Part shown: positions 49 through 48,240 of the stretch, piece after piece
Numbering within the stretch: the stretch's first letter is position 1
Layout of the letters: the number at the start of each line of letters is the position of its first letter
Assembly: GCA_964035015.1 (NCBI GenBank)
Contig: OZ036005.1
Coordinates: forward strand, 4,605,747-4,669,746
Source of the DNA: Corallium rubrum
Lineage: Eukaryota; Cnidaria; Anthozoa; Scleralcyonacea; Coralliidae
Direction of reading: 5' to 3'
Length of the DNA stretch: 64,000 bases
Notes under the pieces: generated by a model
What the model saw: only the letters and a program-made list of their open reading frames with translations
The model's database searches: none
Told to the model about the DNA's origin: nothing
Program-made: the position numbers and the translations under genes

Positions 49-22605
<22,557 letters not shown>

Positions 22606-24022: not shown

Positions 24023-24825
24023 CCTAGGCCTTGCCCAGTTAACGCGTTTGCAAAGTGATCCGATCAAGTCCACCCAAGAACCCGAACCGACTACGCGGCA
24101 TTACGATGTGGGCATTTCAGAATAGGTTACAATATTGACAAAGAAGTCATGTACAAATTACATAGTTTTCTGCTCTTTTTTGGTCGGAACTCCGAAGCTT
24201 GCGCAGGCGCAAAATATTTGCCAGCGGTGTCCTCCATGGGGAAGTGCTTCGTGTTGTGTCCACATAATAGTTTGCATAGATATATACTAGTGATTATGAG
24301 ATATGTACGGTGCATCGTGCTTGATTACTGCTAGTTCTAACTCTAACCCTAACATTAAAACTCTACCATAACCATTTAACCTAATTCTAATCCCAAACGT
24401 GTTTAAACCTAACCCAAACTAATGTGTAGACCTTACATGAAGTAGTTACGTTGTCTTTTGGGTTTATTTTTCTATCGCCCCAGAGTTCTTGCCTCAGGTG
24501 CTTTTCCCCCGGCATGTCTCTTTCTATCCGCTTGGGTTCATTGCTCTTGTTACTTTGTCTGTGTTTATTGTTTTATTATTATTTTATTTTTTTATAGGTT
24601 TTTCTGTACGGATTGTGAATTATTAAAACGTTTTATCAACAAATATTTTTGGTGTACTATATTATAAATTTGTATAAATTAATATATCTGTGTAGCTCAT
24701 ACAGTTTGCATAAATTTGATGTTTTGTTATCTGTTGTGGCTATCATGGCTCAGTGCTTTTTACTCGGGCCTCTGTGGCTTAAAAAAGGCTTTTTGGGGGT
24801 TAAATTATGACATTAAATTATCACA

Positions 24826-24925
24826 AAACACATTTAACTCACGGCAGAACACAATTAACTCACGGCAAAACACAATTTACAACTCACGGCAAAACACAAT
24901 TAACTCACGGTAAAACACAATTTGC
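24826..24925. repeat. Left terminal array, ACTCACGGCAAAACACAATT units
   Basis: About five 18-20-bp units at the left edge of the transposon. The right end has the same motif inverted in a much longer array. Confidence 0.85.
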
Positions 24926-25068
24926 GCTTTGATTGTCAGCGGTCGGTACCATGAGACACGATGTTTCAGGTTACACAAAGTACATCACACTTACACATCG
25001 TATCACAGGGTCACGTTGTTTTCCACTTTTCCGACATTTTTATAGTCGAAGCTGTAGTTTTCTGGTAA

Positions 25069-25115
25069 ATGTTTTGTTCAGATTGTGGCGCGTCTCTGAA
25101 GGATAATGATAAATT
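25069..25115 (+). pseudogene. Truncated zinc-ribbon exon copy in left inverted repeat
   Basis: The ATG at 25069 reads MFCSDCGASLKDNDKFCS, identical to the start of the minus-strand gene's exon at 34722. Similarity breaks after TTCGAC, before the second CxxC. So the left arm carries a cut copy of the right arm's exon, upstream of the real left exon. Confidence 0.75.
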
Positions 25116-25209
25116 TTGTTCGACCACCGTAGTAGAGAGCTATGTGTGCATGTGACACATAGAGGAGAGGTTCCTGCTGTGCATGACATTTTTTATTTCA
25201 AATTTTGAA

Positions 25210-28200
25210 ATGTTTTGCTCAAATTGTGGTGTCGCTGTCATGAATGATGACAACTTTTGTTTGACATGTGGAAACGGTAAGTCGATTAAATTTTACGTTT
25301 TCAAATGTGTGTACGAATAGCTCGAAGAGTGCTCAATACCAGCGGCGTAGCTAGGAATTTCCTCAGAGGGGGGGGGGGGGGGCGAGCATTGAAAATTTCC
25401 GACAAAAGGGCGTGGTCAAATGGGCGTGGCTATAATAGTACCACATTAGTTACTTAGTTTACTCAATTGAATACGTAACATGTATTTTAAAAAAGTATTA
25501 TTTATATATGTCACTTACTTGTTTATATCGATGAGAAATTTGAAAATGAGAACAGAATTCGAGTCTTTGAGTAATTGAGCTATTGCACTGCCACTGAATA
25601 CTAATTGAAACAATGAATGAAATACGAGCCGCAAGGCGCAGCTCAAGACTCATTAGGGAGCTTAAGCAAATACAACGCGAACGTCAAGGACAACGTCCTT
25701 AATACAATAGAATTTTCCTCACAACAAAGAAAATGAACAATTTTTAGCCCCAAGAGTAATCCTTACGCCGTCCCCGTTCTACATACAACGTTATTCAGAT
25801 CATTTTCACGTCTTCAGGACGACGGTAACTCTTGAAACGGCGAAACCTGTTAGTTGAGTTTGACTTTAAACTATGCGACAAAAATCCTTTTAGAACTCTG
25901 AAGCTTTTGAATGTCGGAAAACATAGTTTATGTATTCAATACTACGCAAATGATTCGTGGTTTCTGCTAGATACTGAACTTTAGATTGCCGTTGCCGTCC
26001 TAGCTTGCTTAAGCTCCCTCTTGTCAATGAGACTTGAGCTGCGACTTGCGACTCGTATTTCATCGGAACAATTGTCTGCTGTCAACAGTCAACCTAAACC
26101 TGTGAAAATGATCTGTTCGGCGTGTTTGCATTTTGCAATAGCATGTAACCGGACGTCGTGACCCGGCACTTTGTCACCAGTAGTTTATAATAACTTAATA
26201 AGTATAAAGTGTTTGTTGACATTTCTCGTGCGTTTCCCTTGACTTTTCGCAACAAATACTATTTAGTTTATTGAAAAAAACGAAAGTAAAAAGTTATTAT
26301 TTGTAAAATACAATAACACGATTGTGCCAGTCGTTCTTCGACCATCCGATTTTCCGACAAGCATCAAAATTTTCCGACAAACAACACTCAGAAGTCCTGT
26401 GGGTGGGGGGGGGGGGGGGGGGTGGTCGCCGCCCCCCCCCCCTCTAGCTACGCAATACCATTAAATATGTGGTGGTCAACGACCTACGTCAGTATTTTGC
26501 TTCGAATCTGCTTCTTTCGCTTTTGTCACAGACACAGGAGACATATAGATTTAAATCTGTACCATCTGGCATCTACCAGAAGACCAACTCGCTTTTCCCC
26601 AATTTATTGGGCTATTCCAATTTTTAAATGCACCCCCCTATTGAAGACCCCTATTTTTGTCACCCACTCTCTGGAATATCCAAACTGATGGTTACACCCT
26701 CCCTTGGAATTTCCAACTAAAACCTTATCCCTCCCTGGAATTTTCAAGAAAAATTTATCCCATTGCTTGGAATGTCCAACTTCCACCCTACCCCTCTGGA
26801 ATTTCCAAGGAAATTAATCCCTCCCTTGGAATTTCCATAACTTTCCTCGGACAATATGGGAATATCCCATTTTTAGATTTTACTTGCTTGGAAGATGGCA
26901 ATTCTCAGATCCCTGTATGAACCATATGTGTGGATGCACAAGCATAATTTGATTCCATATTTCAGGGGCTGTGGAGGGGTGGGATGGGGTGGGGTAGCTT
27001 CACACCCCCACCCCACCCTCCACTTTTTAGCTAAGGAAAAGAAACATTTTAAATTAAACCAATTGAGATTTATTTATAAAATTAAATGTTGAAATTGTGG
27101 TTTGCCTCAATGATTTTATGTTAAAAATGTTCTTCAAAGTACTGGAAATAATGTTTTAGAGCTTTAGAAATTCAAAAATTTTCTGGAGAATATGCCCCTA
27201 GCCCACCTAAAAATTGTTAGCCCCCACCCACTCAAAAGATCTCCCAGCAACCCCTGTATTTTTTTTTTCATGCAAGTGAGAGAGGATAAAGTAGGGGTTT
27301 ATCGATTATTTTTAATTAATATTATTGTCGTGTTATTTTCAGAAAACCATTGCCCTTCCGCAGGAATTATAAATGTTTAATTGATTAATTACCACCTTTT
27401 TCAAAGAATGTCTGCCAATTTTGCAGCCATGTCATGCCATTAATGTTTTCAATGACCTGTAACTCACTTTACTAATGTTCAATATTCCTTATTTTAAAAG
27501 TTATGCATGAATTGGATACTGATCAAGATGATTCTGACAGTGAACAAGACAGTGAACAAGAAGTGGAAATTGATGAAGAAGGGATAATAACATATTATTT
27601 TAATTGTGGCTTTAGTTACAAAGAAATGCTTCTATTCTTGGAAAAGCATCATCAGTGCAAAATGAGTCATAGTACCTTAATTCGACGACTGAAAGTATAT
27701 GGGCTAAGTAGGCGAGGCTTTGCTACCAATCCCAATTCTAATCATGCTATTGAAGCTGTTCGAGAACGTATCCGACAAATTGTTAATGGTCCTGGATCTT
27801 CAGGAGGGTATAGGACAGTGTGGCATACTCTGGAAATGGAAGGGTTGAGAGTGCCTCGTATAGTTGTACAGGAGATATTGAAGGAGGTAGATCCAGAAGG
27901 ATCTGAATTAAGAAGAGCCCATCGATTAAAAAGAAGGGAGTATCATAATCCAGGGCCCAATTACTCATGGCATATGGATGGGTACGATAAGCTCAAGCCA
28001 TGGGGCTTTCCTATCCATGGTGCGATAGATGGCTTCAGCAGGAAAATCCTTTGGCTACAGTTAACACGTTCAAACAATTCTCCTGACAGTATTGCAAAAT
28101 TTTATTTAAATGCTGTAAATGAATTTAATGGGTGTCCAGTAGAGATGATAACAGACCTTGGAACAGAAAATGGAATTGTGGCGGCAATCCAGTCCTATTT

Positions 28201-28717
28201 TCGTGATAACCATGAGTCCCATCGCTATGTTCCTTCTCCCAGAAACCAGCGGATTGAAGGATGGTGGTCATATTATGCAAAGAACCGTTCTATGTGGTGG
28301 AGAAGCTTTTTCTCTGATTTGGAATCAAGAGGATTGATTGATTTATCTTTCGAGTTAAGCAAAGAATGTCTTTGGTTTTGTTTCTCTGGCATATTACAAG
28401 AAGACTTAGACACTGTCAAAGAACACTGGAATACTCACCGAATTAGAAAGTCCAGGTACAACACTGTTCCTGGTCGCCCTGATTCGCTTTTTTATTTGCC
28501 TGAACAACATGGTGGTGTTGAAAATATTATCATGGAAGTGCCACAAAATGAACTAAATTATGCAAAGGAAGAAATTGTTCAAAGGAATGAAGATAATGAG
28601 TATCAAGAGTACTTTAACTATGCCATTGAAGCTCTTCAGCTTTCATCTGCAAGTGACTGGCAAGAGGCATACCAATTATATAACAGGCTTATGCAAGTTG
28701 CAGAAAACGGTGAATAA
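25210..28717 (+). CDS. Transposon integrase (DDE) with zinc-ribbon N-terminus
   Basis: Exon 1 (25210-25276) encodes MFCSNCGVAVMNDDNFCLTC, a CxxC...CxxC zinc ribbon. Its donor GTAAGT joins the acceptor at 27499-27500, and exon 2 (27501-28717) continues in frame for 427 residues total. After an acidic stretch (QDDSDSEQDSEQEVEIDEE) come a helix-turn-helix region and an integrase core (GGYRTVWHTLEMEGLRVP, NYSWHMDGYDKLKPWGF). Candidate catalytic residues, numbered from the exon-2 Met: Asp ~159 (HMDGY), Asp ~218 (ITDLGTENG), Glu ~252 (NQRIEGWW). The whole triad is present and the frame is intact, so it may be active. Retroviral-type integrases of this form occur in IS3EU-like animal transposons. 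An alternative is a domesticated copy. No LTRs were seen. Confidence 0.8.
25340..26453. mobile_element. hAT-like non-autonomous element inside the left arm
   Basis: Starts CAGCGGCGTAGCTAGG and ends CTCTAGCTACG, with AATACCA repeated on both outer sides. It has G-runs at both ends (25370-25382; 26405-26422). Internal pair: GAAATACGAGCCGCAAGGCG / inverted TTGCGACTCGTATTTC at 25619-26062, a nested fold-back. Non-coding. The right terminus seems to have lost a few bases. Confidence 0.65.
26640..26875. repeat. Palindromic TTGGAATTTCCAA array, left arm
   Basis: About six units of 30-40 bp, each with a CTTGGAATTTCCAA-type palindrome. The same array lies in the right arm at 33930-34335. Confidence 0.85.
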
Positions 28718-29089
28718 ATGTACATGTACTACCTACTAGATATACTTCATGTAATATTTAAATGAAAACACATGGACGGTATTTTACAAAACATTAATTT
28801 TGTTCATCAAATCAAGATTACAGCCTGGGCTTGTGTTGTATAGACCATAAAATGTTAATAAAAAATTCAGTTTTTCATGGATGTTACATAAAATAGTCTG
28901 CAAAATATGAAACTCTCTGGCAACATGTACAGTTAGTAGTCTTGACCATTATGTATGTACCGTACCTATGAGTAACCATGAGTGCATGCAGTTACATGTA
29001 ATATCAACAGCAAATAAAATAACATCAATTAGAGAACAGCCTATATAAAACTACATACAATATGCATGTTTTTCATGTACACTGTCCTG
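28718..29089. other. Gap between convergent transposon genes
   Basis: 372 bp between the two stop codons. It is AT-rich with AATAAA at about 28857 and inverted-sense TTTATT signals, and presumably serves as the 3' UTRs of both genes. Nothing else was seen. Confidence 0.5.
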
Positions 29090-31292
29090 TCAAGCTTTTC
29101 CAAATGATTGTCCCTTACAATAAGCCAACACAAAAATTTCATTAAACCTATCTGATGTTGTCATGTGAACTACTGGGAGGGTTATTATCTTGGCACATGC
29201 CCCTACAACAGGGAAACACACTTTGTGGTTAGGGCATTCATTAAGACATTCATGGTTAAATGCAACTGTGATTGTAAATCCCTGATCACTTAGTGGCTTG
29301 TGTCTCTGACCAGTTAGCCATCCCAGAATGCCTGCCGGTGTTAGATCAGCCTTGTTAAACTGTTCATCTACTTCTTCAAGGGTATCGACCGCATCATCAT
29401 CATCATCCAAACAAGCAATTGCTTCAACATAATCTGACACATATTCTTTATCTTCAAGTTTAAACAAAAGATCTTGAAAGTGGTCCATGACTGCTTCTTC
29501 GGTTTTTCTCCTTGAACTTCCTTCTGGGGAGTACATTGGAACCAACAAGGAAAATAAATAGTTGGCATCGACAACTTCTTCCTTTTGGGATTCTGTTACA
29601 AACAGAGACTTGCAAATTTCTGGGTTGGTTGTGATTGCATTTCCCAGGCCAAATGCAGCAAGTCCTTTCATAAATTCTTTTAGATATACAATTCTTTTCA
29701 TGACAATGCTTATAACAACAGACTTAACAATGTCTTCCACATGTTTTTCATCGATTAACCCAGTGTACCCATGGTCGATAATTGCTTCTTGATGTGAACA
29801 AACATCATTTTTGATTGAGAATAGAAGGTTCCTATCATCTGGAGTTAGATGCTTGTCTGGATCAAGCTCTTTCATATCTACATCTGGGTGCACCATTAGA
29901 TTAAAAACGCTTGCATCAAGGAAATGTGGTGCTGGTCCACCTTGGGCTACTAGCAATAACTTCACAACAGGAAACAAATGCTCCATTCTGAATATTGGAT
30001 GTTGAATCCACAGGACTTCCATGTGGGAACATAACATGGCCAATTTCAGAAACTATGTTGGTATAAAATTCTTTCGCCATTGCACCCGAATCTATACCCT
30101 GTTCACCAGCATAGTGGACTCTTAGAACTTTGTTTACCTTAGATGGATTTTTATTCATTTCCCTCTTCCAGATTGCAAGGTTTCTTGATAATGGCGCTCC
30201 TCGTCGAACAACAATAAATGAGTGGTCTGATCGATCCACAGCTTTAGATATGGTGTTGATTAATGAAGAAGTGTCTGTGAACTGTTGGTTGTTTTCACTT
30301 AATAGCAGCTGTTCTTCATCATCAAACTGCTTTTGCATTTCAAATGCAAGCTCTTCGTCAGCTACAGTCTGTTGCATAGCAGTGTCTTTTGTAAGATCGA
30401 TGTCTTCATGAAAAGGACTTTCCAACCTTGCATGCTTTGTAATGGGTTTGTGATCTTCTGCATCAGGACTTTTCTGCTCACTAGACTTGGTCATATACTT
30501 GGCAATAGTACCGAAAGTAGTATCAGAGGTAGAAGCACCAAAATCATCATCTGATCTATCGAAGTCAGAGTCAGTACATAGGAAAAGCGTTATCCTCTTG
30601 TAATCCTTGCCTATCTCCTCACGGTAACGATTTAATGTAAAGCATTCTTCTGTTGAACCTGGCAAAAGAATGGCTCTCCTTCCATCTTCATATAATAGTG
30701 AATATGTTTGACTGGGATCAAACAAATTACTATGGAAGTTACTCCACTTTTCTTCAGCTAACTTCAGTAAAGGAATGTAAGATATAGTTGGAGAAACTCT
30801 AAGAGCAAGCTTTTTACCTCTTTTAGGCCTAAGGCTTTGCTCTGCTTCATTCCATTCCATCAGACCAATGCTCAAGACTACATCACTAGCTTCTTTCTTT
30901 TTCCCACTTTTTCCAGATTCTGGAGCTTTAGAGACGCGTTTTTTCCACTCTTTCCCTTTATTCTCTCTAAATGTCTTCAGTGATTTTACGTACCCCTTGG
31001 GTGCACTTCCACTAGCAGTGGAAATACCTGTATAAAAACAAATAAACAAACGCTGTTACAGTCAAACTTGTATATATGGTAGTAATTGGGCCTGACTGTT
31101 CTGTAACACATAAAGAACTACTACTTACAGTACATGTTGACCATTATGTAAAAGTTTACTTTATATAGCTTTATAACTGGGAGTTATTAATATTAAATAA
31201 TCAAAAGTGTTTATATGAGAACTGCAGGTTGTACATGTACATCCTGTTTGAAGGTACTAGGTTCGGAGAAATTTAAAGAATTTAAGTACCTA

Positions 31293-31400
31293 ATATTTAA
31301 AACACGAGCAGGAGTGTTTTATCAGATATAAAACACGAGGTGAAGCAGAGTGTTTTATATCTGATAAAACACGTTCCGCGAGTGTTTTGAATAGCTTAAA
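31293..31400. repeat. AAAACACGAG-type palindrome
   Basis: GTGTTTTATCAGATATAAAACAC and its inverted copy around 31340-31390 form a hairpin in the intron of the HECT-like gene. Confidence 0.6.
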
Positions 31401-31589
31401 AAACGACCACCATTTGGCAAGTTCGTTGGCGGAGTAATTTTTGAAAAATAATGTTGTCTAAGCTGAGAAAATCAAAGCTAAAGTTTATGTAAATTAGGAT
31501 GAAATTTTATCACATTATAAAACCACCAACATGGTACTGATTTCCTTTGTGTTTTCCTCATGAAATATTAATGAGTTTTTTAAGCTAAG

Positions 31590-33592
31590 TGGAAAAAAGA
31601 TCTACTAACACTAACACTAGTCAATATCTCTTTGGCAAATGGTTATTTTCCAACTGCATGGAAACTATCGAATATTTTTCCTATTTTTAAAAAAGATAAT
31701 CGCCAATTGAAAAGCAATTACCGCCCTATTTCTCTACTGACATCATTATCTAAAATATTAGAGAAAATCGTGTTTAAATGTCTTTACAACTTTTTGCTAG
31801 AAATATGCTTTTTCACTCCCTTACAATCAGGTTTTCGTCCTGGGGATTCTACTGTGAATCAACTTATACTTATGGTACATAAAATACATGAAGCTTTAGA
31901 GGGTGGGAAGGAAGTGCATATGGTCTTCTTGGACATGAGCAAAGCATTTGATAAAGTTTGGCACAAAGGCCTCTTTTTGAAGTTGGAATGCTTAGGTGTT
32001 AGAGATCCGCTCCTATCTTGGATTAAAAGTTACTTGACAAACAGAAAACAGCGAGTAGTCATTGATGGCCACTCGTCTGATTGGAAAAAAGTTGAAGCGG
32101 GGGTGCCTCAGGGATCAGTATTAGGACCTTTGTTATTCTTAATTTATAGAAATGATATTACTGAAAACCTTCAGAGTAATTGCTTTCTTTATGCAGATGA
32201 TACTTCATTGTTAGAAATTGTTGAAGATCCCAAATTGGCATCTACTAAACTTAACAATGATTTAAAAAGTATTTATTTAGTAATTGGACACGTGACTGGC
32301 AAGTCACTATTAATCCAAGCAAGACTGAAGCGATGATCTTTTCCACTAAGCGATACAAACCAGCACATCCTGCATTGTATTATGAAAATAATGAAATTAC
32401 TACTGTCAGCAGTCACAAACATCTTGGAGTCACTCTTTTGTCTAATCTGTCATGGCGCATACATATTTTAAATATTTATGATAAAGCTCTCAAACGACTT
32501 AATTTATTGAAAGGTTTAAGATTCAAAATTAACAGAAACACTTTGGATAAACTATATAAGTCCTTAATTAGACCTGTTATGGAATATGCAGATGCAGTCT
32601 GGGATGGTTGTACTGAAGACGTTAGTGATCTGCTTGAATCTGTGCAATACGAATTTGCTAAGGTGGTCACGGGTGCAATGAAGGGTACTGGGCGTCAAAG
32701 ATTATTAGAAGAGTTAGCATGGGAAGATTTGAAAACAAGGCGTTCAGTTCACAAACTTGTTTTATTTTTTAAGATAGTTAATTAGCTAACACCAAATTAT
32801 TTATTCGACTTCCTTCCACTTACAACACAACAAAGATCAGGGATATTGCTGAGATCCTCCTGTAATTTCAGCTTATTCCAATGTCGTACGGAGAGATTTA
32901 AAAAATCTTTCTTTCCTGCCACTACAATTTTATGGAATAGCTTAGACTATGATTTTCGGGATACTCAATCTATAGGTCATTTTAAAAGATGCTTGCTAGA
33001 TTTCTTTGACATTTCAACTTATGATAAACGCTATGATTATGCACTTGATAGATATAGTTCAATTTTACATACTCGAATTAGGCTGAATTGTTGTGCGCTG
33101 AATTATTATCTCTTTAAAATCAATTGTGTGGCATCTCAGGCCTGTGATTGTGGATTCAGTTGTGAATCCCCAATTCATTATTTTCTACATTGTCCCCGAT
33201 ATGCTGCTTTTAGATTTTCTTTGTTTATGGCTGTAGTTGAAATCTTGGGAAACAGCTGGTATAATATGTCTGACTCAGTTAAAGTGAAAATGATTTTGTT
33301 TGGCGCTGAAAATTTGAATTTGAATCAAAATAATGCTATTTTTTGCCATGTGCAACAATATATTAAAAGTTCAGAGCGTTTTGTAGTTTTAAATGATTGA
33401 TCAACCAGCTGTTTCCTTGGCTGCCTATTATGTACTATGTATAGTTGCATGCATGCGTGTACTCTTATACCACTTTTTGTAACTATTTTATAAATATGCG
33501 TGAGCCCCCCAGATGAGCTTTTATTGCTCTTGGGGCAAACGTAAGAAATATATGTTTAAATAAAAAAAAAAAATTAAAAAAAAGAAAAAAAG
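31590..33592 (+). pseudogene. Truncated LINE with broken reverse transcriptase
   Basis: The open reading resumes from about 31600 with ANGYFPTAWKLSNIFPIFKK, NYRPISLLTSLSKILEKIVF and FLDMSKAFDKVWHKGL, then GVPQGSVLGPLL and the catalytic YADDT. A frameshift near 32280 moves into INPSKTEAMIFSTKRY, HKHLGVTL and RPVMEYADAVW. A single TAG at 32783-32785 breaks the same frame before the last domain (to 33400). The tail ends in an A-rich run (33562-33592). No endonuclease is present. It belongs to the jockey/CR1-like non-LTR group and was inserted in the transposon intron, opposite to the HECT-like gene. Confidence 0.85.
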
Positions 33593-33929
33593 ATGTACAT
33601 AATTTTCTTTTTTGCTCATTTATAAATGTTTGGTGTTGGGAGGTAGACCATATTAGAACAGTACACATGATTGATTGGCTGCAGGCTGGCTCATGTGAAT
33701 TACACCATGTTCAGGCAGTGTCATCCTATTTTTAACTCAAAAATTGTCTTATTCAAATTCTTAACTGCAAATTTAAAAATGAACAATGTGAATTTCATAT
33801 CTAACAACTATGAACATCAACAGAGCATGCAAGATGACGTTTTCTTAAAAAATAACCAAACTTGACCCCCCGATTTTATCCCCCCCCCCCATGTTGAGGA
33901 ACCTCAATTTTTTTTAGTACCATCTTTGG

Positions 33930-34335
33930 AATTTCCACCTATTTTGCTCTAAATTTATAGCCCTCCCCGGAAAATTCCAGTCAGGTTTCCTACCTTCCCT
34001 TGGAAATTCCAAACAGGTTTGCGACCCTCCCCTGGAAGTTCCAACTAGCATTATGCATTAATTATACCCCTGCCCTGGAATTTCCAAGTAGATTTATACC
34101 CCTCCCCAGGAAAATCCAGTCAGGTTTGTGACCTCCCCTGCACGTTTCTAACAGCTTTGTAACCTTGCCCAGGAATTTCCAGTCAGCCAGTCAGGTTTGT
34201 AACCCCCTGGAAATTCTAACCAGATTTATAGCCCTCCTGGAAATTCCAAACAGGTGACTGAGGTGAGCTAAACTACCCTACCCCTTGGAATTTCCAGTGC
34301 TAAAACTAACCCCCTCCCCTGGAATTTCCAAGGTT
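33930..34335. repeat. Palindromic TTGGAATTTCCAA array, right arm
   Basis: About ten 35-45-bp units with CCCTGGAATTTCCAA or GGAAATTCCAA cores, the counterpart of the left-arm array at 26640. Confidence 0.85.
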
Positions 34336-34871
34336 ACTCAACAGGGGGATGCGGATAAAAATTGGAATAGCCCAATATTAAACGGTCAGCTAAATAATCA
34401 CTTAAAATGCCATTTCCAATCATACTCATTCGCCACTTAATATTGACCATCCGGACTTCTGAACAGGTTTCTTGAATTTTATATTGGTTTTCCTTGTGTT
34501 TAAAAGCCCTCTTTTTTAGTTTTGGGTAAATCTTATGTGTGTCAGAATCGCTCAAAATACCGCCTACTGATAATATAATGTTTATATGAATATTAGCCGT
34601 AGATATAAATATTTTGTTAAGTTCATATATCAAGATATAATCAATGTTTACTCACCCTTTCCACATGTCGAACAAAATTTATCATTATCCTTCAGAGACG
34701 CGCCACAATCTGAACAAAACATTTACCAGAAAACTACAGCTTCGACTATAAAAATGTCGGAAAAGTGGAAAACAACGTGACCCTGTGATACGATGTGTAA
34801 GTGTGATGTACTTTGTGTAACCTGAAACATCGTGTCTCATGGTACCGACCGCTGACAATCAAAGCGCAAAT

Positions 34872-35235
34872 TGTGTTTTACCGTGAGTTAATTGTGTTTT
34901 GCCGTGAGTTGTAAATTGTGTTTTGCCGTGAGTTAATTGTGTTCTGCCGTGAGTTAAATGTGTTTTGCCGTGAGTTGATTGTGTTCTGCCGTGAGTTAAG
35001 TGTGTTTTGCCGTGAGTTAATTGTGTTTTGCCGTGAGTTGTAAATTGTGTTTTGCCGTGAGTTAATTGTGTTCTGCCGTGAGTTAAATGTGTTTTGCCGT
35101 GAGTTAATTGTGTTCTGCCGTGAGTTAAGTGCGTTTTGCCGTGAGTTAATTGTGTTTTGCCGTGAGTTAAGTGTATTTTGCCGTGAGTTCATTGTATCTT
35201 GCCGTGAACATTTGTTCTTGCCGTGACACTTGTGG
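34872..35235. repeat. Right terminal array, TTGCCGTGAGTTAATTGTG units
   Basis: About 18-19 units of 18-20 bp, the inverted form of the left array. The units degrade towards the outer edge (CCGTGAACATT, CCGTGACACTT). Confidence 0.92.
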
Positions 35236-35240
35236 GCCAC

Positions 35241-35617
35241 CGTAATAAAATACTATAATAGTACATACTATTAATAATAATTTACAGAAATCGTTAATCG
35301 TGTTTTTACCAGTCATAGTGAATAACTGTTATTTGGATAACTTATTTTTAAAAATAACTGACATGATTTTACTCCATGTATACAGCTGATTTCTGTTTAT
35401 TTTTTCTGGTCATTGTTTTTTTTCAAATTCATTTATATTTACATTCTTGGGGGAATTAATTAGTTATACTATTTCTAAGCCCTATTAAAAAGGTTGCTTG
35501 TGGGTCATAATTATAATAAATCCATTTTTGTAACTAAATTTTCATATGTGAAAAAATTAATCCAAATCAACCTCCACTTCTAAAAGTGACTGTATTATGA
35601 TATTGATTCTCTTACAG
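35241..35617. other. Unassigned stretch between two transposons
   Basis: AT-rich DNA after the end of the first transposon. It probably holds the left end and first exon of the Harbinger element, but neither could be defined. Confidence 0.4.
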
Positions 35618-36795
35618 GGACAAGCTTTAAACTTCAACATGATAAAAGACAGCCATCAGTTACTGAAAATGAGGCAACATTTACAAAAAACAAGTCACCA
35701 GACACAGAGCAGAATTTGCTTCCCACAGCCACAGGTATTTGGCACTCAGAACAGTGACCCTGCTATGGCAATAATCTATTTTTGTAACTGATTTTCATAT
35801 ATTATGTGAAAATTTCAATCCAAATCAACCTCCACTTCTAAAAATGACTCTATTATGATTCTCCTCTTACAGAGACAAGCTTTGAACTTCAGCAAGATAC
35901 AAGACAGCCACCAGTTACTGAAAATGAGGCAACATTTACAAAAAAACAGTCACCAGAAACAGAGCAGAATTTGCTTCCCACAGCCACAGGTATTGTGCAA
36001 TCATATTTTACAGGTAGAAATGTTGTTTAATTACTGATAACACTGAGTTTTCATATAAAGTTAACTTTTCTTAATTTTTCTAGCCACTAGGTGGGGTGCC
36101 TAATGCAGAAAAATCACTTGCCTGCAGTAAAATTTGCTTGCACCCCTGCTGAAGCTACGTAGGTTTTTTAGTCTGTTTTTTGACATGCTGTATTTGCTTG
36201 ATTATTTTTTTTCAGCCAACAAAGGGGAGAATGCAGTGTGGGTACACTCAGGAACCTTACTGTTGATTGACCAATACAAAGCCTGGGAACCCAAAATAAA
36301 AAAGAAAAAAAACCTGTGGGCTAAGATATCTGAAATCATGCAGCTCCATGGATATAGCTACAACAGTGAACAATGTGAAGGAAAATGGAAAACACTGGTT
36401 CGAAGCTTAAAAAAAGTTGCAGATCACAATTCTAAGTCAGGGAATGAATTAAAAATTCATCCATATGAGGACGAACTTTCTTTTTCTCTGCCCAACCCAA
36501 TGTTAAACCTTCATATATAGTTGATAGCACCATTGATGGTGCTGTACAAAATGTTGGAGAATCTGACCCTACTGGTGAAAGTGATACTGACAATGGCAGA
36601 TCCCCATCACCTGCTCCTGTTCCTGCAAAGAAGAAACGATCAAATGTTTCTGAAGTGTTAGATGTTTTAAAAGAGCATATGCTGACCCAAAGTGCTAGAC
36701 AAGCAGAGGCATTGCAAAGGCAAGAAATGATGCACCAGGAAAGAATGTCTGTAATGAAAGGTTTTCTTGATGTGTTCAGGGATATGAGGAAATAA
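35618..36795 (+). pseudogene. Harbinger trihelix (Myb/SANT-like) gene, duplicated exon and frameshift
   Basis: Exons at 35618-35734 and 35873-35989 are both 117 bp, near-identical and frame-neutral (GTSFKLQHDKRQPSVTENEA versus ETSFELQQDTRQPPVTENEA). The next exon starts at 36216 and encodes the DNA-binding domain (WVHSGTLLLIDQYKAWEPKI, NSEQCEGKWKTLVRSLKKV). The frame stops at 36520, but the next frame carries the expected continuation PSYIVDSTIDGAVQ and a helical tail (LKEHMLTQSARQAEALQRQE) to TAA at 36793. A one-base change in the T-rich stretch near 36476-36487 explains it. The first exon was not located. This is the usual second protein of PIF/Harbinger elements. Confidence 0.72.
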
Positions 36796-37209: not shown

Positions 37210-38337
37210 TTACTGAACTAACACATCATCATTAATAATGCATATATTATGAAAAATACAACAAACTATTATAGTATCTACTGCAGTCTTTACCGACTTT
37301 GTATCAAGTAACTGTAAGCGCCGAAATCTTCCTTTCAATAATCCAAATGACCGTTCTACGGCAACTCGGGTTGATGATAACCGGTAATTGAAACGGCGCT
37401 GTCTTCTGGACAAATGACCATTGTCCCTGAATGGTTTTAAAAGCCATGTTCTCAATGGATATGCACCATCACCTAATAAATGATTGTTTGGACCACACCA
37501 CACTGGGGCAATGTTCCAAATGTCACAGTTTTTGAGGATTCTTGCATCATTAACACTACCTGGCCAGCCCGCGACTACATGCAAAAATTGTAGGTTACTA
37601 GCACAAATTCCTTGAAGGACTATTGAGTGGAATTTTTTGCGATTCACATACACTTGTGGATGTTTACTGGGTGCAACTATGCGAATGTGAGTACCATCAA
37701 TTACACCCATTACATTTGGAAATTGTGAACCAACCCTAAAGTCATCCATTATTTTAGTTTTCACATTTTCTTCCTGTGGCAGGTAGATGAACTTTCTTTT
37801 CAGGTGCGTTAAAACAACGGTGAAAACCCTGTTTCTGCATCGGATAATTGATGAATCAGTAACACTGAACCTATCACTCATTCTGTGAATCGTGTCCTGG
37901 TGGGCAATGAACCAAAGAGCAATTAATAAATGTTTTTCAGCAGTTATTGCACTTCTTCCTCTTACTACATCAGGTTTTAGATAACCAGCCACATTCTGCA
38001 ATATTGTTTCAAAAGTTCCTCTTGAAATCCGGAAAAATCCCTGGAAATCATCAAGAAGGTAGCTAGGTATAGTATCTTCGGTGTAACGGGTAATCTTTGT
38101 CCTATCTTCACGAACCCTAAAAAGCATTAGACGTATCACGTATAAAGCTTAAACTTCTTGATATGCTATGTTTTATTAATCACAATCAAACAAAATTTAA
38201 TAACCTTACATTGCGATTGCTGCAGCAAAGAACATTTCCATGTTTATATGATCATCAAACATATTTTCGTCTTCATGTTCAGCTCCCAATGCTGAAATCA
38301 GTACTGGAATAAACGAATTGTGTAGTTGCTCCGCCAT
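37210..38337 (-). CDS. HARBI1-type DDE nuclease of a PIF/Harbinger transposon
   Basis: Exon 1 (38210-38337) starts MAEQLHNSFIPVLISALGAE. Its donor GTAAGG joins an acceptor before 38116, and exon 2 (37210-38116) continues in frame, 344 residues in all. Catalytic-type motifs: VMGVIDGTHIRI (first Asp), GWPGSVNDARIL (second Asp), VAVERSFGLLKGRF (Glu). The N-terminal region GFFRISRGTFETIL is typical of HARBI1-like proteins. The reading frame is undamaged. Its partner is the convergent trihelix gene, as in known Harbinger elements. The terminal repeats and 3-bp target site were not resolved. Confidence 0.88.
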
Positions 38338-40335: not shown

Positions 40336-40487
40336 CTGAATCTCGAAAGAAGACTGGATCGAGTAGTTACTCATTGTTCATCAGGGTCAGAAAACGAAGC
40401 TCGCGAAATGTCAATTTGGTCCCTTGCTAATGGCACCGATCAGGCAATTGTGTAAGTAGCTTAATCCGCACATACAGGATCGGAAGT

Positions 40488-40625
40488 GACGTCACGCTTT
40501 CATACCGGAAGTGAGGTGTGCGCACAGGTGTGCGCACAGGCTGACGTCACATGGGTGTGCGCACAGGCTGACGTCACAGGGGTGTGCGCACATGATGTGA
40601 CGTCATTAGGGGTGTGCGCACAAAG
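40488..40625. promoter_or_regulatory. CRE / ETS / GTGCGCAC cluster in left arm
   Basis: GGAAGTGACGTCACG, CCGGAAGTGAG, three further TGACGTCA sites, and five TGTGCGCACA-type palindromes. An inverted copy lies at 43555-43690. Candidate promoter sites by motif only. Confidence 0.45.
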
Positions 40626-41154
40626 AATGCTGACGTGATAAAAATTATGCGGTGTATATCATTAACGTATCGCGGGCTACTTTTCGACAGCTATTTCGGA
40701 ACGCACTCGGGTTTCCTTCGGTCATCATCGTATTATTTCAAGATGGGTGAAGATCGATAAATAAAAACAGTATTGGAACAGTTTGGCTTGCTTTTTTTCC
40801 TTTCTTTTTTAGTGAATATGAGGAAAAAGATGGATTTGAGACAGAGTTCAGGTTTTTCTGATTACCAAGCCATTTTAAATTCTTTCTTTTTGGATTAATG
40901 ATCACAATGTGCAATAGACACTTTTATACGTTTATGTACACTGAATTACTTAGACTGATGTTTTATAAGCCTACGTGATAATTTTCTACCATAACTAAAC
41001 ACTTAATAAGTATACTGTTCAGGTTTTTACGTTGTTTGTTTATGTAAATGGTTACACGAGAAAGAAACGTCATGTGGTTATTTTCAATGGGTACCTGAAC
41101 CAGCAAAGTCGTCCCGCGTTGAAGAGCCGTTCATTTTTGTGAGATGAGAAGATG

Positions 41155-41585
41155 AGCACATGCTCATAACTGCTCTGAGCACCTGCTCATTGGCTCATAA
41201 CTGCTCTGAGCACTTGCTCATTGGCTCATAACTGCTCATGAGCACTTGCTCTTATGAGCCAATGAGCAAGTGCTCATGAGCAGTTATGAGCCAATGAGCA
41301 AGTGCTCAGAGCACTTATGAGCCAATGAGCAAGTGCTCTGAGCACTTGCTCATCGGCTCATAACTGCTCATGAGCACTTGCTCATTGGCTCATAAGTGCT
41401 CATGAGCACTTGCTCATTGGCTCATAAGTGCTCTGAGCACTTGCTCATTGGCTCATAAGTGCTCTGAGCACTTGCTCATTGGCTCATAAGTGCCCTGAGC
41501 ACTTGCTCATTGGCTCATAAGTGCTCTGAGCACTTGCTTATTGGCTCATAACTGCTCATGAGCACTTGCTCATTTGCTCATATGG
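41155..41585. repeat. GAGCAAGTGCTC / TGAGCCAATGAGCA palindromic array, left
   Basis: Alternating GAGCACTTGCTCATTGGCTC and its inverse, about 430 bp, able to form many hairpins. It is mirrored at 42630-43030. Confidence 0.9.
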
Positions 41586-41879
41586 GCCCGTTTTGGCCCG
41601 TTTTGGCCCTATAAGGCACTATACGGCCCGATGGCCCGTTTGCTGACTAGACGTCCTAACCTGGGCAAGCCCAGGCTTGTCATGCTCCAGGACTTATTCT
41701 TGCTTAAAAAATGAAACAAGACACAATACAATTTTGATAAATTTTTATCCGGTTGCTAAAGTTGAAATAACTATAGGAAGCATGGACGAAAGAAATTCCT
41801 AGTCCAAAAATCAAGTGGTGTTTCTTAATAGGGACTTTCCGTCCCTACTCGTCATTTACAGGTTGTCTGAGCTGAAAGA

Positions 41880-42437
41880 ATGAACTGCCAATATTGTGGG
41901 AAAATGTTTAATAAAGGCTATAATCTAAGACGGCACGAAAACGATTGTCCGTCAAGGGAATACACTGACACTGAGGAGCCTGATATGGAATCTGATGAAG
42001 AAATGTCAAGCTCGTCGTATGATGAAAACAGTCAGAGTTCCGAAGATGACGGTGAAATAAAGGAAGAGATTGATCCTTGGGCAACCATGATTGATGATGC
42101 AAAAGTGACGGTTCGGCCAGAATATGATGAACTATTAAAAACGTTGCAAATGGAAGGGCAAGAAGAAAGTGTAGCTAAGCAGAAAGCCTTTGAAAAAATT
42201 CTCCCTGAACTTCAGAAAGAATTCGCTGACGTTTACGTGGATAATTTACGTTGGATGAAAGCACTTAAAAAGGATCCTGTGCATGGAAAGATCATGGAAA
42301 CGAAGCAGACACTTGTGAACGAAGACTCGTTTGATCCTGATGAAGCTTTATCTGCAGCGGTTGACAAAAGAAAGTTTCTTTTGAAACAGCTTTTAGAAGA
42401 TCAAGGACGTTTTTCAGATAGTGATGATGATCAGTGA
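41880..42437 (+). CDS. Single C2H2 zinc-finger acidic protein, 185 aa, unknown function
   Basis: One exon, ATG at 41880, TGA at 42435; AATAAA about 25 bp downstream (42460). Residues 1-25 are a C2H2-like finger (CQYCGKMFNKGYNLRRHENDC, a CxxC...HxxxxC variant in which the last ligand is Cys). Residues about 27-65 are acidic and Ser-rich (SDEEMSSSSYDENSQSSEDD). Residues about 70-185 form a helical, charged domain (DNLRWMKALKKDPVHGKIME, KRKFLLKQLLEDQGRFSD). I do not recognise the family. It is flanked by the two long inverted repeats and is the only gene in the element. The frame is intact. It could be a DNA-binding accessory protein, or a captured host gene. Confidence 0.75.
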   Translation: MNCQYCGKMFNKGYNLRRHENDCPSREYTDTEEPDMESDEEMSSSSYDENSQSSEDDGEIKEEIDPWATMIDDAKVTVRPEYDELLKTLQMEGQEESVAKQKAFEKILPELQKEFADVYVDNLRWMKALKKDPVHGKIMETKQTLVNEDSFDPDEALSAAVDKRKFLLKQLLEDQGRFSDSDDDQ

Positions 42438-42629
42438 ATCGATGTAATGCTTATGTGAAATAAAAATTTATCAAAATTGTATTGTGTCTTGTTTCATTTT
42501 TTAAGCAATAATAAGTCCTGGAGCATGACAAGCCTGGGCTTGCCCAGGTTAGGACGTCTAGTCAGCAAACGGGCCATCGGGCCGTATAGTGCCTTATAGG
42601 GCCAAAACGGGCCAAAACGGGCCCATATG

Positions 42630-43032
42630 AGCAAATGAGCAAGTGCTCATGAGCAGTTATGAGCCAATGAGCAAGTGCTCAGGGCACTTATGAGCCAATG
42701 AGCAAGTGCTCAGAGCACTTATGAGCCAATGAGCAAGTGCTCAGAGCACTTATGAGCCAATGAGCAAGTGCTCATGAGCACTTATGAGCCAATGAGCAAG
42801 TGCTCATGAGCAGTTATGAGCCGATGAGCAAGTGCTCAGAGCACTTGCTCATTGGCTCATAAGTGCTCTGAGCACTTGCTCATTGGCTCATAACTGCTCA
42901 TGAGCACTTGCTCATTGGCTCATAAGAGCAAGTGCTCATGAGCAGTTATGAGCCAATGAGCAAGTGCTCAGAGCAGTTATGAGCCAATGAGCAGGTGCTC
43001 AGAGCAGTTATGAGCATGTGCTCATCTTCTCA
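42630..43032. repeat. GAGCAAGTGCTC palindromic array, right
   Basis: Inverted counterpart of 41155-41585 with the same order of variants, including single-base variants such as CAGGGCAC, showing shared origin. Confidence 0.9.
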
Positions 43033-43916
43033 TCTCACAAAAATGAACGGCTCTTCAACGCGGGACGACTTTGCTGGTTCAGGTACCCATTGAAAATAAC
43101 CACATGACGTTTCTTTCTCGTGTAACCATTTACATAAACAAACAACGTAAAAACCTGAACAGTATACTTATTAAGTGTTTAGTTATGGTAGAAAATTATC
43201 ACGTAGGCTTATAAAACATCAGTCTAAGTAATTCAGTGTACATAAACGTATAAAAGTGTCTATTGCACATTGTGATCATTAATCCAAAAAGAAAGAATTT
43301 AAAATGGCTTGGTAATCAGAAAAACCTGAACTCTGTCTCAAATCCATCTTTTTCCTCATATTCACTAAAAAAGAAAGGAAAAAAAGCAAGCCAAACTGTT
43401 CCAATACTGTTTTTATTTATCGATCTTCACCCATCTTGAAATAATACGATGATGACCGAAGGAAACCCGAGTGCGTTCCGAAATAGCTGTCGAAAAGTAG
43501 CCCGCGATACGTTAATGATATACACCGCATAATTTTTATCACGTCAGCATTCTTTGTGCGCACACCCCTAATGACGTCACATCATGTGCGCACACCCCTG
43601 TGACGTCAGCCTGTGCGCACACCCATGTGACGTCAGCCTGTGCGCACACCTGTGCGCACACCTCACTTCCGGTATGAAAGCGTGACGTCACTTCCGATCC
43701 TGTATGTGCGGATTAAGCTACTTGTGTAGGTAGATCAATACGAAGATGGAAAATTCTGGACACATTGCTGTGTTTTTGTTTGTAAAAGCGAAAAACGAAG
43801 AAACAGGATGACAACAACTCCGTAGCGATATTTCAAACATGCATGGGTTGGTCCCTTAGTAATGGCAGATTCTGGCTTCATTTCCAAACAAACCAAACTA
43901 AACTAACTTATATTTG

Positions 43917-45782: not shown

Positions 45783-45939
45783 AATAGAAAAAGAAGTGAA
45801 AAATTAATGTTTAGAACATGGTTAATTGGGCATTGTTCATTGTCATGCCATTGCTAATGTTTTTGTCCCTTTCCGTTAATTGTCATTGTCTTTTTGTTGT
45901 TATTGTGTTTTTCATGCATCGTGTATCGTATTTAACATA

Positions 45940-48240
45940 TCTCATATATCATCTCATCTGATCATCTCCCATATCTCATATCATACCTCATCCTATATCT
46001 CATCTCATATTTCATCTTATATCTCATCTCATAACTCATCTTATATCTCATCTCATATCTCATCTTATATCTCATCTCATACCTCATCTCATATCTCATC
46101 TTATATCTCATCTCATAACTCATCTTATATCTCATTTCATATCTCATCTCATATCCCATCTCATAACTCATCTCATAACTCATCCCATAACTCATCTCAT
46201 ACCTCATCTCATATCTCATTTCATATCTCATCTTATATCTCATCTCATAACTCATCTTATATCTCATTTCATATCTCATCTTATATCTCATCTCATAACT
46301 CATCTTATATCTCATCTTATATCTCATTTCATATCTCATCTCATACCTCATCTCATAACTCATCTTATATCTCATTTCATATCTCATCTTATATCTCATT
46401 TCATAACTCATCTTATATCTCATCTTATATCTCATCTTATATCTCATTTCATATCTCATCTTATATCTCATCTCATAACTCAACTTATATCTCATCTTAT
46501 ATCTCATCTCCCATATCTCATCTTATATCTCATCTCCCATATCTCATCTTATATCTCATCTCCCATATCTCATCTTATATCTCATCTTATATCTCATCTT
46601 ATATCTCATCTTATATCTCATCTCATAACTCATCTTATATCTCATTTCATATCTCATCTTATATCTCATCTCATAACTCATCTTATATCTCATCTTATAT
46701 CTCATCTTATATCTCATCTTATATCTCATCTCTCATATCTCATCTTATATCTCATCTCCCATATCTCATCTTATATCTCATCTCCCATATCTCATCTTAT
46801 ATCTCATCTCCCATATCTCATCTTATATCTCATCTCATATCTCATCTTATATCTCATCTTATATCTCATCTCATAACTCATCTTATATCTCATTTCATAT
46901 CTCATCTTATATCTCATCTCATAACTCATCTTATATCTCATCTTATATCTCATCTTATATCTCATCTCCCATATCTCATCTTATATCTCATCTCCCATAT
47001 CTCATCTTATATCTCATCTCCCATATCTCATCTTATATCTCATCTCATATCTCATCTTATATCTCATCTCATCTTATATCTCATTTCATATCTCATCTCA
47101 TCTCATAACTCATCTTATATCTCATCTTATATCTCATCTTATATCTCATCTCATATCTCATCTTATACCTCATCTCATACCTCATCTCATCTTATATCTC
47201 ATTTCATATCTCATCTTATATCTCATCTCATAACTCATCTTATATCTCATCTTATATCTCATCTCCCATATCTCATCTTATGTCTCATCTCCCATATCTC
47301 ATCTCATATCTCATCTCATATCTCATCTTATATCTCATCTCATATCTCATCTTATATCTCATTTCATATCTCATCTCATATCTCATCTCATAACTCATCT
47401 TATATCTCATCTTATATCTCATCTTATATCTCATCTCATATCTCATCTTATATCTCATTTCATATCTCATCTCATATCTCATCTTATATCTCATTTCATA
47501 TCTCATATCTCATTTCATATCTCATCTCATATCTCATCTTATATCTCATCTCATATCTCATCTTATATCTCATTTCATATCTCATCTCATATCTCATCTC
47601 ATAACTCATCTTATATCTCATCTTATATCTCATTCTATATCTCATCTTATATCTCATCTCATATCTCATCTTATATCTCATCTCATATCTCATCTTATAT
47701 CTCATTTCATATCTCATCTCATATCTCATCTCATAACTCATCTCATAACTCATCTCATATCTCATCTCATAACTCATCTCATAACTCATCTCATATCTCA
47801 TCTTATATCTCATCTCATATCTCATCTTATATCTCATCTCACATCTCATTTTATATCTCATCTCATATCTCATATCTCATCTCATAACTCATCTCATAAC
47901 TCATCTTATATCTCATCTTATATCTCATCTCATATCCCATGTTATATCTCATCTCATAACTCATCTTATAGCTCATCTCATATCTCATCTTATATATCTC
48001 ATCTTATATCTCATCTTATATCTCATCTCCCATATCTCATCTTATATCACATCTTATATCTCATCTCATATCTCATATCATATCTCATCTAATATCTCAT
48101 CTAATATGTCATCTAATATCGCATATCTCATCCCATATCTCATCTTATATTTCATCTCATCTCATCTCATATCTCATCTCATATCTCATCTTATATTTCA
48201 TCTCATCTCATATCTCATCTCCCATGCATATCTCCTCTCA
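45940..48240. repeat. ATCTCATCTTAT satellite, ~2.3 kb
   Basis: Irregular 10-, 11- and 12-bp units, ATCTCATCTT and ATATCTCATCTC, with CCC and AAC variants. It begins about 155 bp upstream of the channel start codon. The 574-residue open frame inside is an artefact. Confidence 0.96.

Follow-up and report, generated by a model that had tools for sequence, protein, structure and literature searches.

The compact element at positions 40455-43722 of a stretch of the Corallium rubrum genome is very probably, judging by its sequence, a non-autonomous satellite of Polintons (Mavericks) that carries a zinc-finger/acidic gene of its own, is integrated by the Polinton machinery and is probably copied in trans by the Polinton DNA polymerase (PolB). 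The stretch, hereafter the window, is 64,000 nucleotides long (4605747-4669746 of contig C23), and the genome searches were made against the 474-Mb assembly of 312 contigs. The element measures about 3.3 kb and holds one intact gene between long inverted arms, and its AGTAG[CA]TTA ends are common to it and to full-size Polinton/Maverick elements of the same genome. Since it combines Polinton-like ends with the absence of the defining gene content, we file it as a non-autonomous, gene-bearing relative of these elements.

Probable Polinton partners in the same genome

The first-pass annotation had offered two alternatives, a mobile unit served by a host or partner transposase and an undescribed self-sufficient family. 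The partner alternative is supported, the likely partner being a clade of same-end Polintons in the genome, one of which, a 14.5-kb Polinton at C13:11136063-11150562, is flanked by an exact 6-bp target duplication (GCCCAG). Its terminal inverted repeats (TIRs) align over 338 columns at 90.5%, and it was read in three pieces amounting to about 13 kb, leaving 11140021-11140099 and 11145101-11146499 unread. The domains recovered were an rve integrase (2.9e-13), a chromodomain (1.5e-11) and DNA_pol_B_2 (1.4e-23), together with an adenovirus-type endoprotease match just above the cut-off (9.7e-5) and an ATPase-like open reading frame (ORF) with weak matches only (AAA_22 at 0.0072, below the cut-off; a terminase PHROG at 1.2e-4). 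The conserved Polinton set consists of PolB, rve integrase, an FtsK-like ATPase and a cysteine protease (PMC4028283, in excerpt).

A second likely partner is represented by an unpaired terminus at C23:190385-190407, which adjoins a PolB match found independently with Pfam DNA_pol_B_2. The terminal module at this end (L055) is 86% identical to the outer 145 bp of the window element (146 columns, E=1.9e-39); inward of it lie a 162-aa frame and then a 1,231-aa PolB frame, and a 99% integrase copy is found about 9 kb inside the same end. Both the C13 and the C23 Polinton start with AGTAGC. Moreover, the C13 end matches the window element at 88% over 58 columns (E=1.7e-13), and its first 58 nt agree without gaps with the element's end at 45/58 positions, compared with 29/58 at the best place elsewhere in the window.

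Most other integrases among the matches listed share only about 54-59% identity with the C13 integrase. A C14 Polinton belonging to another clade was considered as a same-end relative and set aside, since no AGTAG[CA]TTA occurs in the pieces read. At C14:301500-326000 (L049-L051), and likewise at PolB pairs on C49, C25, C20 and at C1:17.7 Mb, Polintons of another clade are arranged as large near-perfect palindromes, each half containing PolB and an ATPase-like frame; the ATPase-like frame at 313765-314541 has, by eye, an N-terminal C2H2 finger. Besides, a Polinton-type integrase (54%) at C1:85565421-85566479 lies 1.3 kb from an open copy of the 185-codon gene at C1:85567762-85568319, possibly a satellite beside or inside a more distant Polinton.

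Division of genes between long and short elements

The first 100 of 132 genomic terminus sites were analysed for neighbouring inverted pairs less than 30 kb apart, and the presence or absence of a gene in a pair refers throughout to the matches listed. Among these sites 37 inverted pairs were found, 33 of them with an identical 23-mer at both ends, and they comprise 32 short pairs (1.3-9.5 kb) and five long ones (9.8-23.6 kb). The C13 integrase as query gave at least 114 matches (best 113 of 2,087 candidates scored). Integrase is present at 97-100% identity in four of the five long pairs, against none of the 32 short pairs:

C1:47795882, query residues 30-359 of 359
C12:11433408, query residues 1-282 of 359
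C13:11142497, the query itself
C37:9038594, query residues 1-225 of 359

The 185-codon gene shows the reverse distribution (26/32 short pairs vs 0/5 long pairs). Among the matches listed, two element classes thus share their ends and split the gene content between them, the integrase in the long pairs being whole or partial. A profile of the protein family run against the Polinton pieces examined found nothing, and the gene is therefore not a simple left-over of the Polintons examined.

The copy at C8:15998267-16007746 (L009, L010) was first taken as an autonomous member of the family. It was rejected as a helper because two broken inverted gene copies flank its PIF/Harbinger-like frames (recognised by eye), which look like a nested insertion; the composite has satellite ends and the duplication AACCGT/AACTGT.

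A dispersed, mobile family

The arm DNA gave at least 183 matches on many contigs (best 40 of 489 candidates scored). The 24-nt terminus, with up to two mismatches, occurs at 60 genome sites against none for a reversed-pattern control, and the relaxed 23-nt terminus at 132 sites (64 forward and 68 reverse, against 0 and 0 in the reversed control). Twenty compact copies were checked, namely the window element, 15 loci with both ends resolved and four later copies; L018, L022 and L026 were left out of the duplication count, their ends being unresolved or truncated. Every copy beyond the window element has its own flanking DNA. An exact 6-bp target duplication was found in 15/20 copies and a 5/6 match in 4/20, while 380 mismatched left/right pairings used as control gave no exact match and five at 5/6; the sole copy with neither, L015, is set in a GGTT simple repeat. 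The left end reads AGTAG[CA]TT in 20/20 copies, and the right end AGTAGTAG is found in L019 alone. Judged by these signatures the element is a member of a mobile family, with the multiple same-end copies and 6-bp duplications that the annotation had named as support for one. Its two misgivings, a single-copy locus or an assembly duplication of the arms, do not hold: an assembly artefact is excluded because many dispersed copies have flanks of their own.

The gene is similarly widespread, with at least 150 matches, all at 82-100% identity (best 150 of 217 candidates scored). Among those listed, 88/150 are at least 546 bp long and 83 of these 88 have no stop, and another 30 measure 495-545 bp, of which 24 are likewise free of stops. 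In the same list 25 matches begin at residue 21 (22 span residues 21-185), the finger falling outside the match; such copies may have lost or replaced the finger, or may encode it on a separate exon.

Structure of the element and probable exchange of terminal modules

The anatomy first described, consisting of long arms, an intact 185-codon gene, a TGTGTA duplication and no transposase, was confirmed on the sequence. Between 40454-41526 and 42651-43723 the arms are complementary at 100% over 1,073 nt, and complementarity extends inward to 41748 and 42460 at 99%, giving arms of 1,294 nt (left) and 1,263 nt (right) that differ in length by 31 nt. Inside the window element no ATG-started ORF of at least 100 aa was found besides the 185-codon gene. 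The features are as follows:

40449..40454, unstranded: left copy of the target-site duplication TGTGTA, 6 bp
40455..41748, plus strand: left TIR, 1,294 nt, starting AGTAGCTTAATCC (self-comparison of the arms)
40455..40599, plus strand: left terminal module, a homologue of the end of the C23 Polinton (L055; alignment given above)
40618..40830, plus strand: segment of the arm (element bases 164-376) with 98.6% identity to DNA inside the C13 Polinton, adjoining its PolB gene
41145..41587, plus strand: repeat array with units of about 31 bp (GAGCACTTGCTCATTGGCTCATAA...), within the inner portion of the left TIR
41880..42437, plus strand: sole gene, 185 aa, with an N-terminal C2H2 finger, an acidic linker and a conserved helical C-terminal domain
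42460..43722, minus strand: right TIR, 1,263 nt, ending GGATTAAGCTACT (self-comparison of the arms)
43578..43722, minus strand: right terminal module, homologue of the same C23 Polinton end
43723..43728, unstranded: right copy of the target-site duplication TGTGTA, 6 bp

The left terminal module contains cAMP response element (CRE)-like TGACGTCA and palindromic GTGTGCGCACA repeats. The arm segment at 40618..40830 aligns with positions 2868-3083 of L057, a piece of the C13 Polinton (E=1.9e-107), and is mirrored in the right arm at element bases 2893-3105. The flanks of the element share a short direct repeat, GGTCCCTT..TAATGGCA, near 40415-40435 and 43850-43870, around the insertion site.

The outer 120 nt of satellite and Polinton ends were aligned and identities taken over the first 75 columns. 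Identity to the C13 Polinton end is 91-95% for L017 and L027 and 86% for the window element, and L012 and L024 match the C23 end at 91-93%. The lowest satellite value, 49% in L028, is due to an inserted module (GGTAATTTTCCATCCA) and a missing stretch further in, and the same module stands at the same point in several copies. Additionally, several 23-nt variants, such as AGTAGATTAACCCATACATACAG and AGTAGATTAACCCCCCCATCCAG, occur on both integrase-bearing long pairs and gene-bearing short pairs, and the arms of L053 share with the C13 Polinton a stretch of about 395 bp at 97-98% identity, part of which corresponds to the window arm segment at element bases 164-376. From these observations we infer that sequence has passed between satellites and Polintons on more than one occasion.

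A multi-finger C2H2 frame (MRKKKRCDICGKHTSNYKH...) is present in the L053 satellite arms and, nearly identical, beside PolB in the C13 Polinton (about 11149367-11149762). Another element, L052 (C20:15403943-15410117), has the same ends, arms with a different small zinc-finger ORF (MGRTRRNCPVFGCGSTNLARLANHLDQVHG...) and an inserted frame resembling a long interspersed nuclear element (LINE).

Indications of a possible copying step

Under simple cut-and-paste inheritance the left and right arms of a copy would be free to diverge. Of 32 terminal arms, 28 are most similar to the opposite arm of their own copy, although copies differ from one another, with a between-copy mean identity of 0.90; L023, whose own arms are only 59% identical, was counted as a miss. 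Inverted gene dimers also occur, with nine neighbouring pairs within 9 kb among the gene matches listed, and at four places two Polinton PolB copies lie 6-8 kb from each other in inverted orientation. The likeness of the arms could arise by copying from one arm, by panhandle formation during protein-primed replication or by gene conversion. Taken together, arm homogenisation and inverted dimers lend moderate, indirect support to replication by the Polinton PolB.

The 185-aa protein

Pfam gave a C2H2 match and two DUF matches for the protein, all below their cut-offs. Its linker is acidic (18 D/E vs 2 K/R in residues 26-66), and the AlphaFold model consists of a finger plus helices (mean predicted local distance difference test score, pLDDT, 72; predicted template modelling score, pTM, 0.47). 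Foldseek against PDB returned no match at E<=0.001; neither this search nor Pfam indicated a catalytic domain, which leaves the self-sufficient new family unsupported. In its partner alternative the annotation had the element carrying a DNA-binding protein of its own. The protein may bind DNA, but a lone C2H2 finger is also able to bind protein. Our guess is that it may serve as an adaptor, acting either on a helper protein or at the repeated palindromes (TGACGTCA, GTGTGCGCACA) of the ends.

At least 149 homologues at E<=1e-3 were found in other records (214 candidates), the best with 75% identity over 99% of the query, and one cluster holds 92 sequences. Eleven columns are invariant in an alignment of 32 sequences, namely the window's protein plus 31 taken from the 120 homologues listed. 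Neither viral contigs nor prokaryote genomes yielded a relative of the protein, and the exact terminus was absent from the viral contigs. Within the genome, 14 intact copies differ by 12 synonymous and 27 non-synonymous changes (P=0.34), with no significant purifying selection, and the mean pairwise divergence among 13 copies (non-synonymous, dN, 0.012; synonymous, dS, 0.027) fits weak or no constraint on young copies. The absence of a selection signal would be expected if the copies are young; with selection within the genome silent, the need for the gene therefore rests on its spread in other records. The L024 gene, at first a candidate divergent paralogue (53%, tblastn), was rejected, being a broken copy with a 69-aa frame.

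Mechanism and alternative explanations

In the mechanism that we favour, the AGTAG[CA]TTA ends common to both element classes are very likely recognised by the Polinton integrase, which then inserts the satellite. The Polinton PolB would plausibly copy it as a linear molecule in trans, and copying from the shared ends would explain the near-identical arms within a copy, the differences between copies and the inverted dimers. The zinc-finger/acidic protein might conceivably act in trans, binding either a helper protein or the terminal repeats and directing the helper machinery to the satellite. By analogy with virophages and transpovirons, and tentatively, the satellite could be a small linear replicon for which the Polinton provides excision or copying, replication and perhaps packaging, its protein hijacking or dampening the helper.

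Several observations weigh against a Polinton satellite so described. Mobility is read from standing copies, neither movement nor an empty site having been observed; the use of PolB is deduced, and gene conversion between palindrome arms could also account for arm identity. The terminal match covers just about 58-145 bp plus one internal segment, most of each arm being unmatched to the Polinton DNA examined. The long pair at C37:7111831-7121617 has no integrase, and the integrase match is only partial in C12 (1-282) and at C37:9.03 Mb (1-225). Six of the 32 short pairs are without the gene, and the 9.5-kb pair on C8, one of the 26, holds it as fragments only; all these absences concern listed matches. 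Furthermore, no capsid candidate among the C13 Polinton ORFs had a Pfam or PHROG match, and purifying selection on the gene was not significant.

In an alternative reading the element is a plain non-autonomous Polinton that arose by internal deletion and whose gene is an incidental passenger without a role in mobility, as in a gene-trapping miniature inverted-repeat transposable element (MITE). It retains the Polinton ends of our own reading, and the missing selection signal, the gene-less short pairs and the broken gene copies in elements with exact duplications (L016, L024) all suit it. A passenger is difficult to reconcile with the stop-free state of 83 of the 88 longest gene matches listed, with at least 149 homologues in other records and their 11 invariant columns, and with the lack of anything similar in the Polinton pieces examined; we regard it as possible but doubtful. 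It is improbable that an independent cut-and-paste family with an unrecognised transposase has traded end modules with Polintons, in either direction, while keeping its machinery separate. Most of the arm is indeed unmatched to the Polinton pieces examined and the end modules clearly recombine, but among the copies read no same-end element has another transposase of its own, four of five long pairs hold the Polinton integrase, the PIF/Harbinger-like frames on C8 look nested, and the C13 Polinton has the same outermost bases and likewise a 6-bp duplication.

Mobilisation of the IS3EU/GingerRoot type might be suspected because the window also contains an rva_4-type DDE element (about 24.8-35.1 kb) and 6-bp duplications are usual in that group (PMC10045372, in excerpt). 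The AGTAG ends of 20/20 copies differ from the TA..TA, occasionally TG..CA, ends found there, and blastn of the element against window positions 24301-35700 gave no match, making this very remote. An assembly duplication or a static palindrome, which the near-perfect inverted repeats of the arms would superficially suit, is rendered negligible by the dispersal of many copies, almost every one checked having a target duplication of its own. A gene-bearing Polinton satellite thus remains the explanation that we prefer.

Other features of the window

A second element occupies 24812-35120 and has arms of 301 bp that are 100% complementary, stand 9.5 kb apart and are bordered by outer 21-bp tandem repeats. 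It encloses an rva_4/rve DDE gene (27503-28717, plus strand), two ORFs without a Pfam match (29090-31049, minus strand) and an inserted LINE-type reverse-transcriptase ORF (31632-32336). A DDE_Tnp_4 (PIF/Harbinger-type) transposase ORF of 309 aa (37210-38139, minus strand) lies about 2.3 kb outside the satellite element at 40455-43722. Tandem low-complexity arrays at 45830-47604 and 12774-13680 (12-bp and 8-bp spacing) give rise to long spurious ORFs. The genes of the window are animal-like, with two Kv-type channel ORFs and one FNIP-domain ORF.

Significance

Literature searches on non-autonomous Polintons/Mavericks, which covered titles and the beginnings of abstracts and had Repbase and the founding Polinton paper outside their scope, yielded no description of such an element. 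Whether Polintons act today as viruses or as transposons is an open question, and a dispersed, recent family that is immobile alone and has Polinton ends implies that Polinton machinery has worked in trans in this lineage, so that satellites may serve as reporters of Polinton activity. A gene-bearing satellite would, if true, add a new ecological layer for Polintons in animals. Moreover, if the protein's relatives in other records also belong to elements of this type, the family would mark such satellites widely.

Comparison with known systems

MITEs and foldback elements have no transposase and share their ends with an autonomous partner. The present element differs from them in its open, multi-copy gene with homologues in other records and in the likeness of its arms within a copy. 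With the Polintons/Mavericks (adintovirus-like) it shares terminal modules, AGT-type ends, 6-bp duplications, a TIR length in the vertebrate range and the same genome. In vertebrate Mavericks the duplications are 6 bp long, the TIRs measure 46-1,447 bp and the ends are commonly (AGT)2//(ACT)2 or (AG)3 (PMC8097293, in excerpt); compared with the (AGT)2//(ACT)2 motif, the left ends here read AGTAG[CA] in 20/20 copies, and AGTAGTAG stands only at the right end of L019. Unlike a Polinton, the window element has no PolB, integrase, protease, ATPase or capsid gene, measures 3.3 kb vs about 14-17 kb, and carries a gene absent from the Polinton pieces examined.

Among other DNA transposons, complete IS3EU families are described as always having TA..TA ends, and GingerRoot mostly TA..TA and occasionally TG..CA (PMC10045372, in excerpt); the length of the duplication, 6 bp, is shared with these groups, whereas the AGTAG ends differ. 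Ginger1 and Ginger2 are marked by TGTNR ends and by duplications of 4 bp, or of 5 bp in TDD-4/-5 (PMC2836005, in excerpt), and PIF/Harbinger elements (PHIS) have a DDE_Tnp_4 transposase and no duplications or duplications of 1-4 bp (PMC10045372, in excerpt); the element departs from both in its 6-bp duplications and from the Ginger groups also in its AGTAG ends. The Tlr elements of Tetrahymena were once proposed as non-autonomous Polinton derivatives, encode a major capsid protein of their own and have been placed as an old separate lineage (PMC4028283, in excerpt). The idea of a Polinton derivative is common to Tlr and to the present element, which has one unrelated gene. Transpovirons and virophages are satellites of giant viruses (PMC7031253, PMC8877843, both in excerpt), and like them the element would be a small DNA element relying on the machinery of a larger virus-like replicon. 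The likeness drawn here is one of lifestyle, and the helper, unlike theirs, would be a Polinton integrated in an animal genome.

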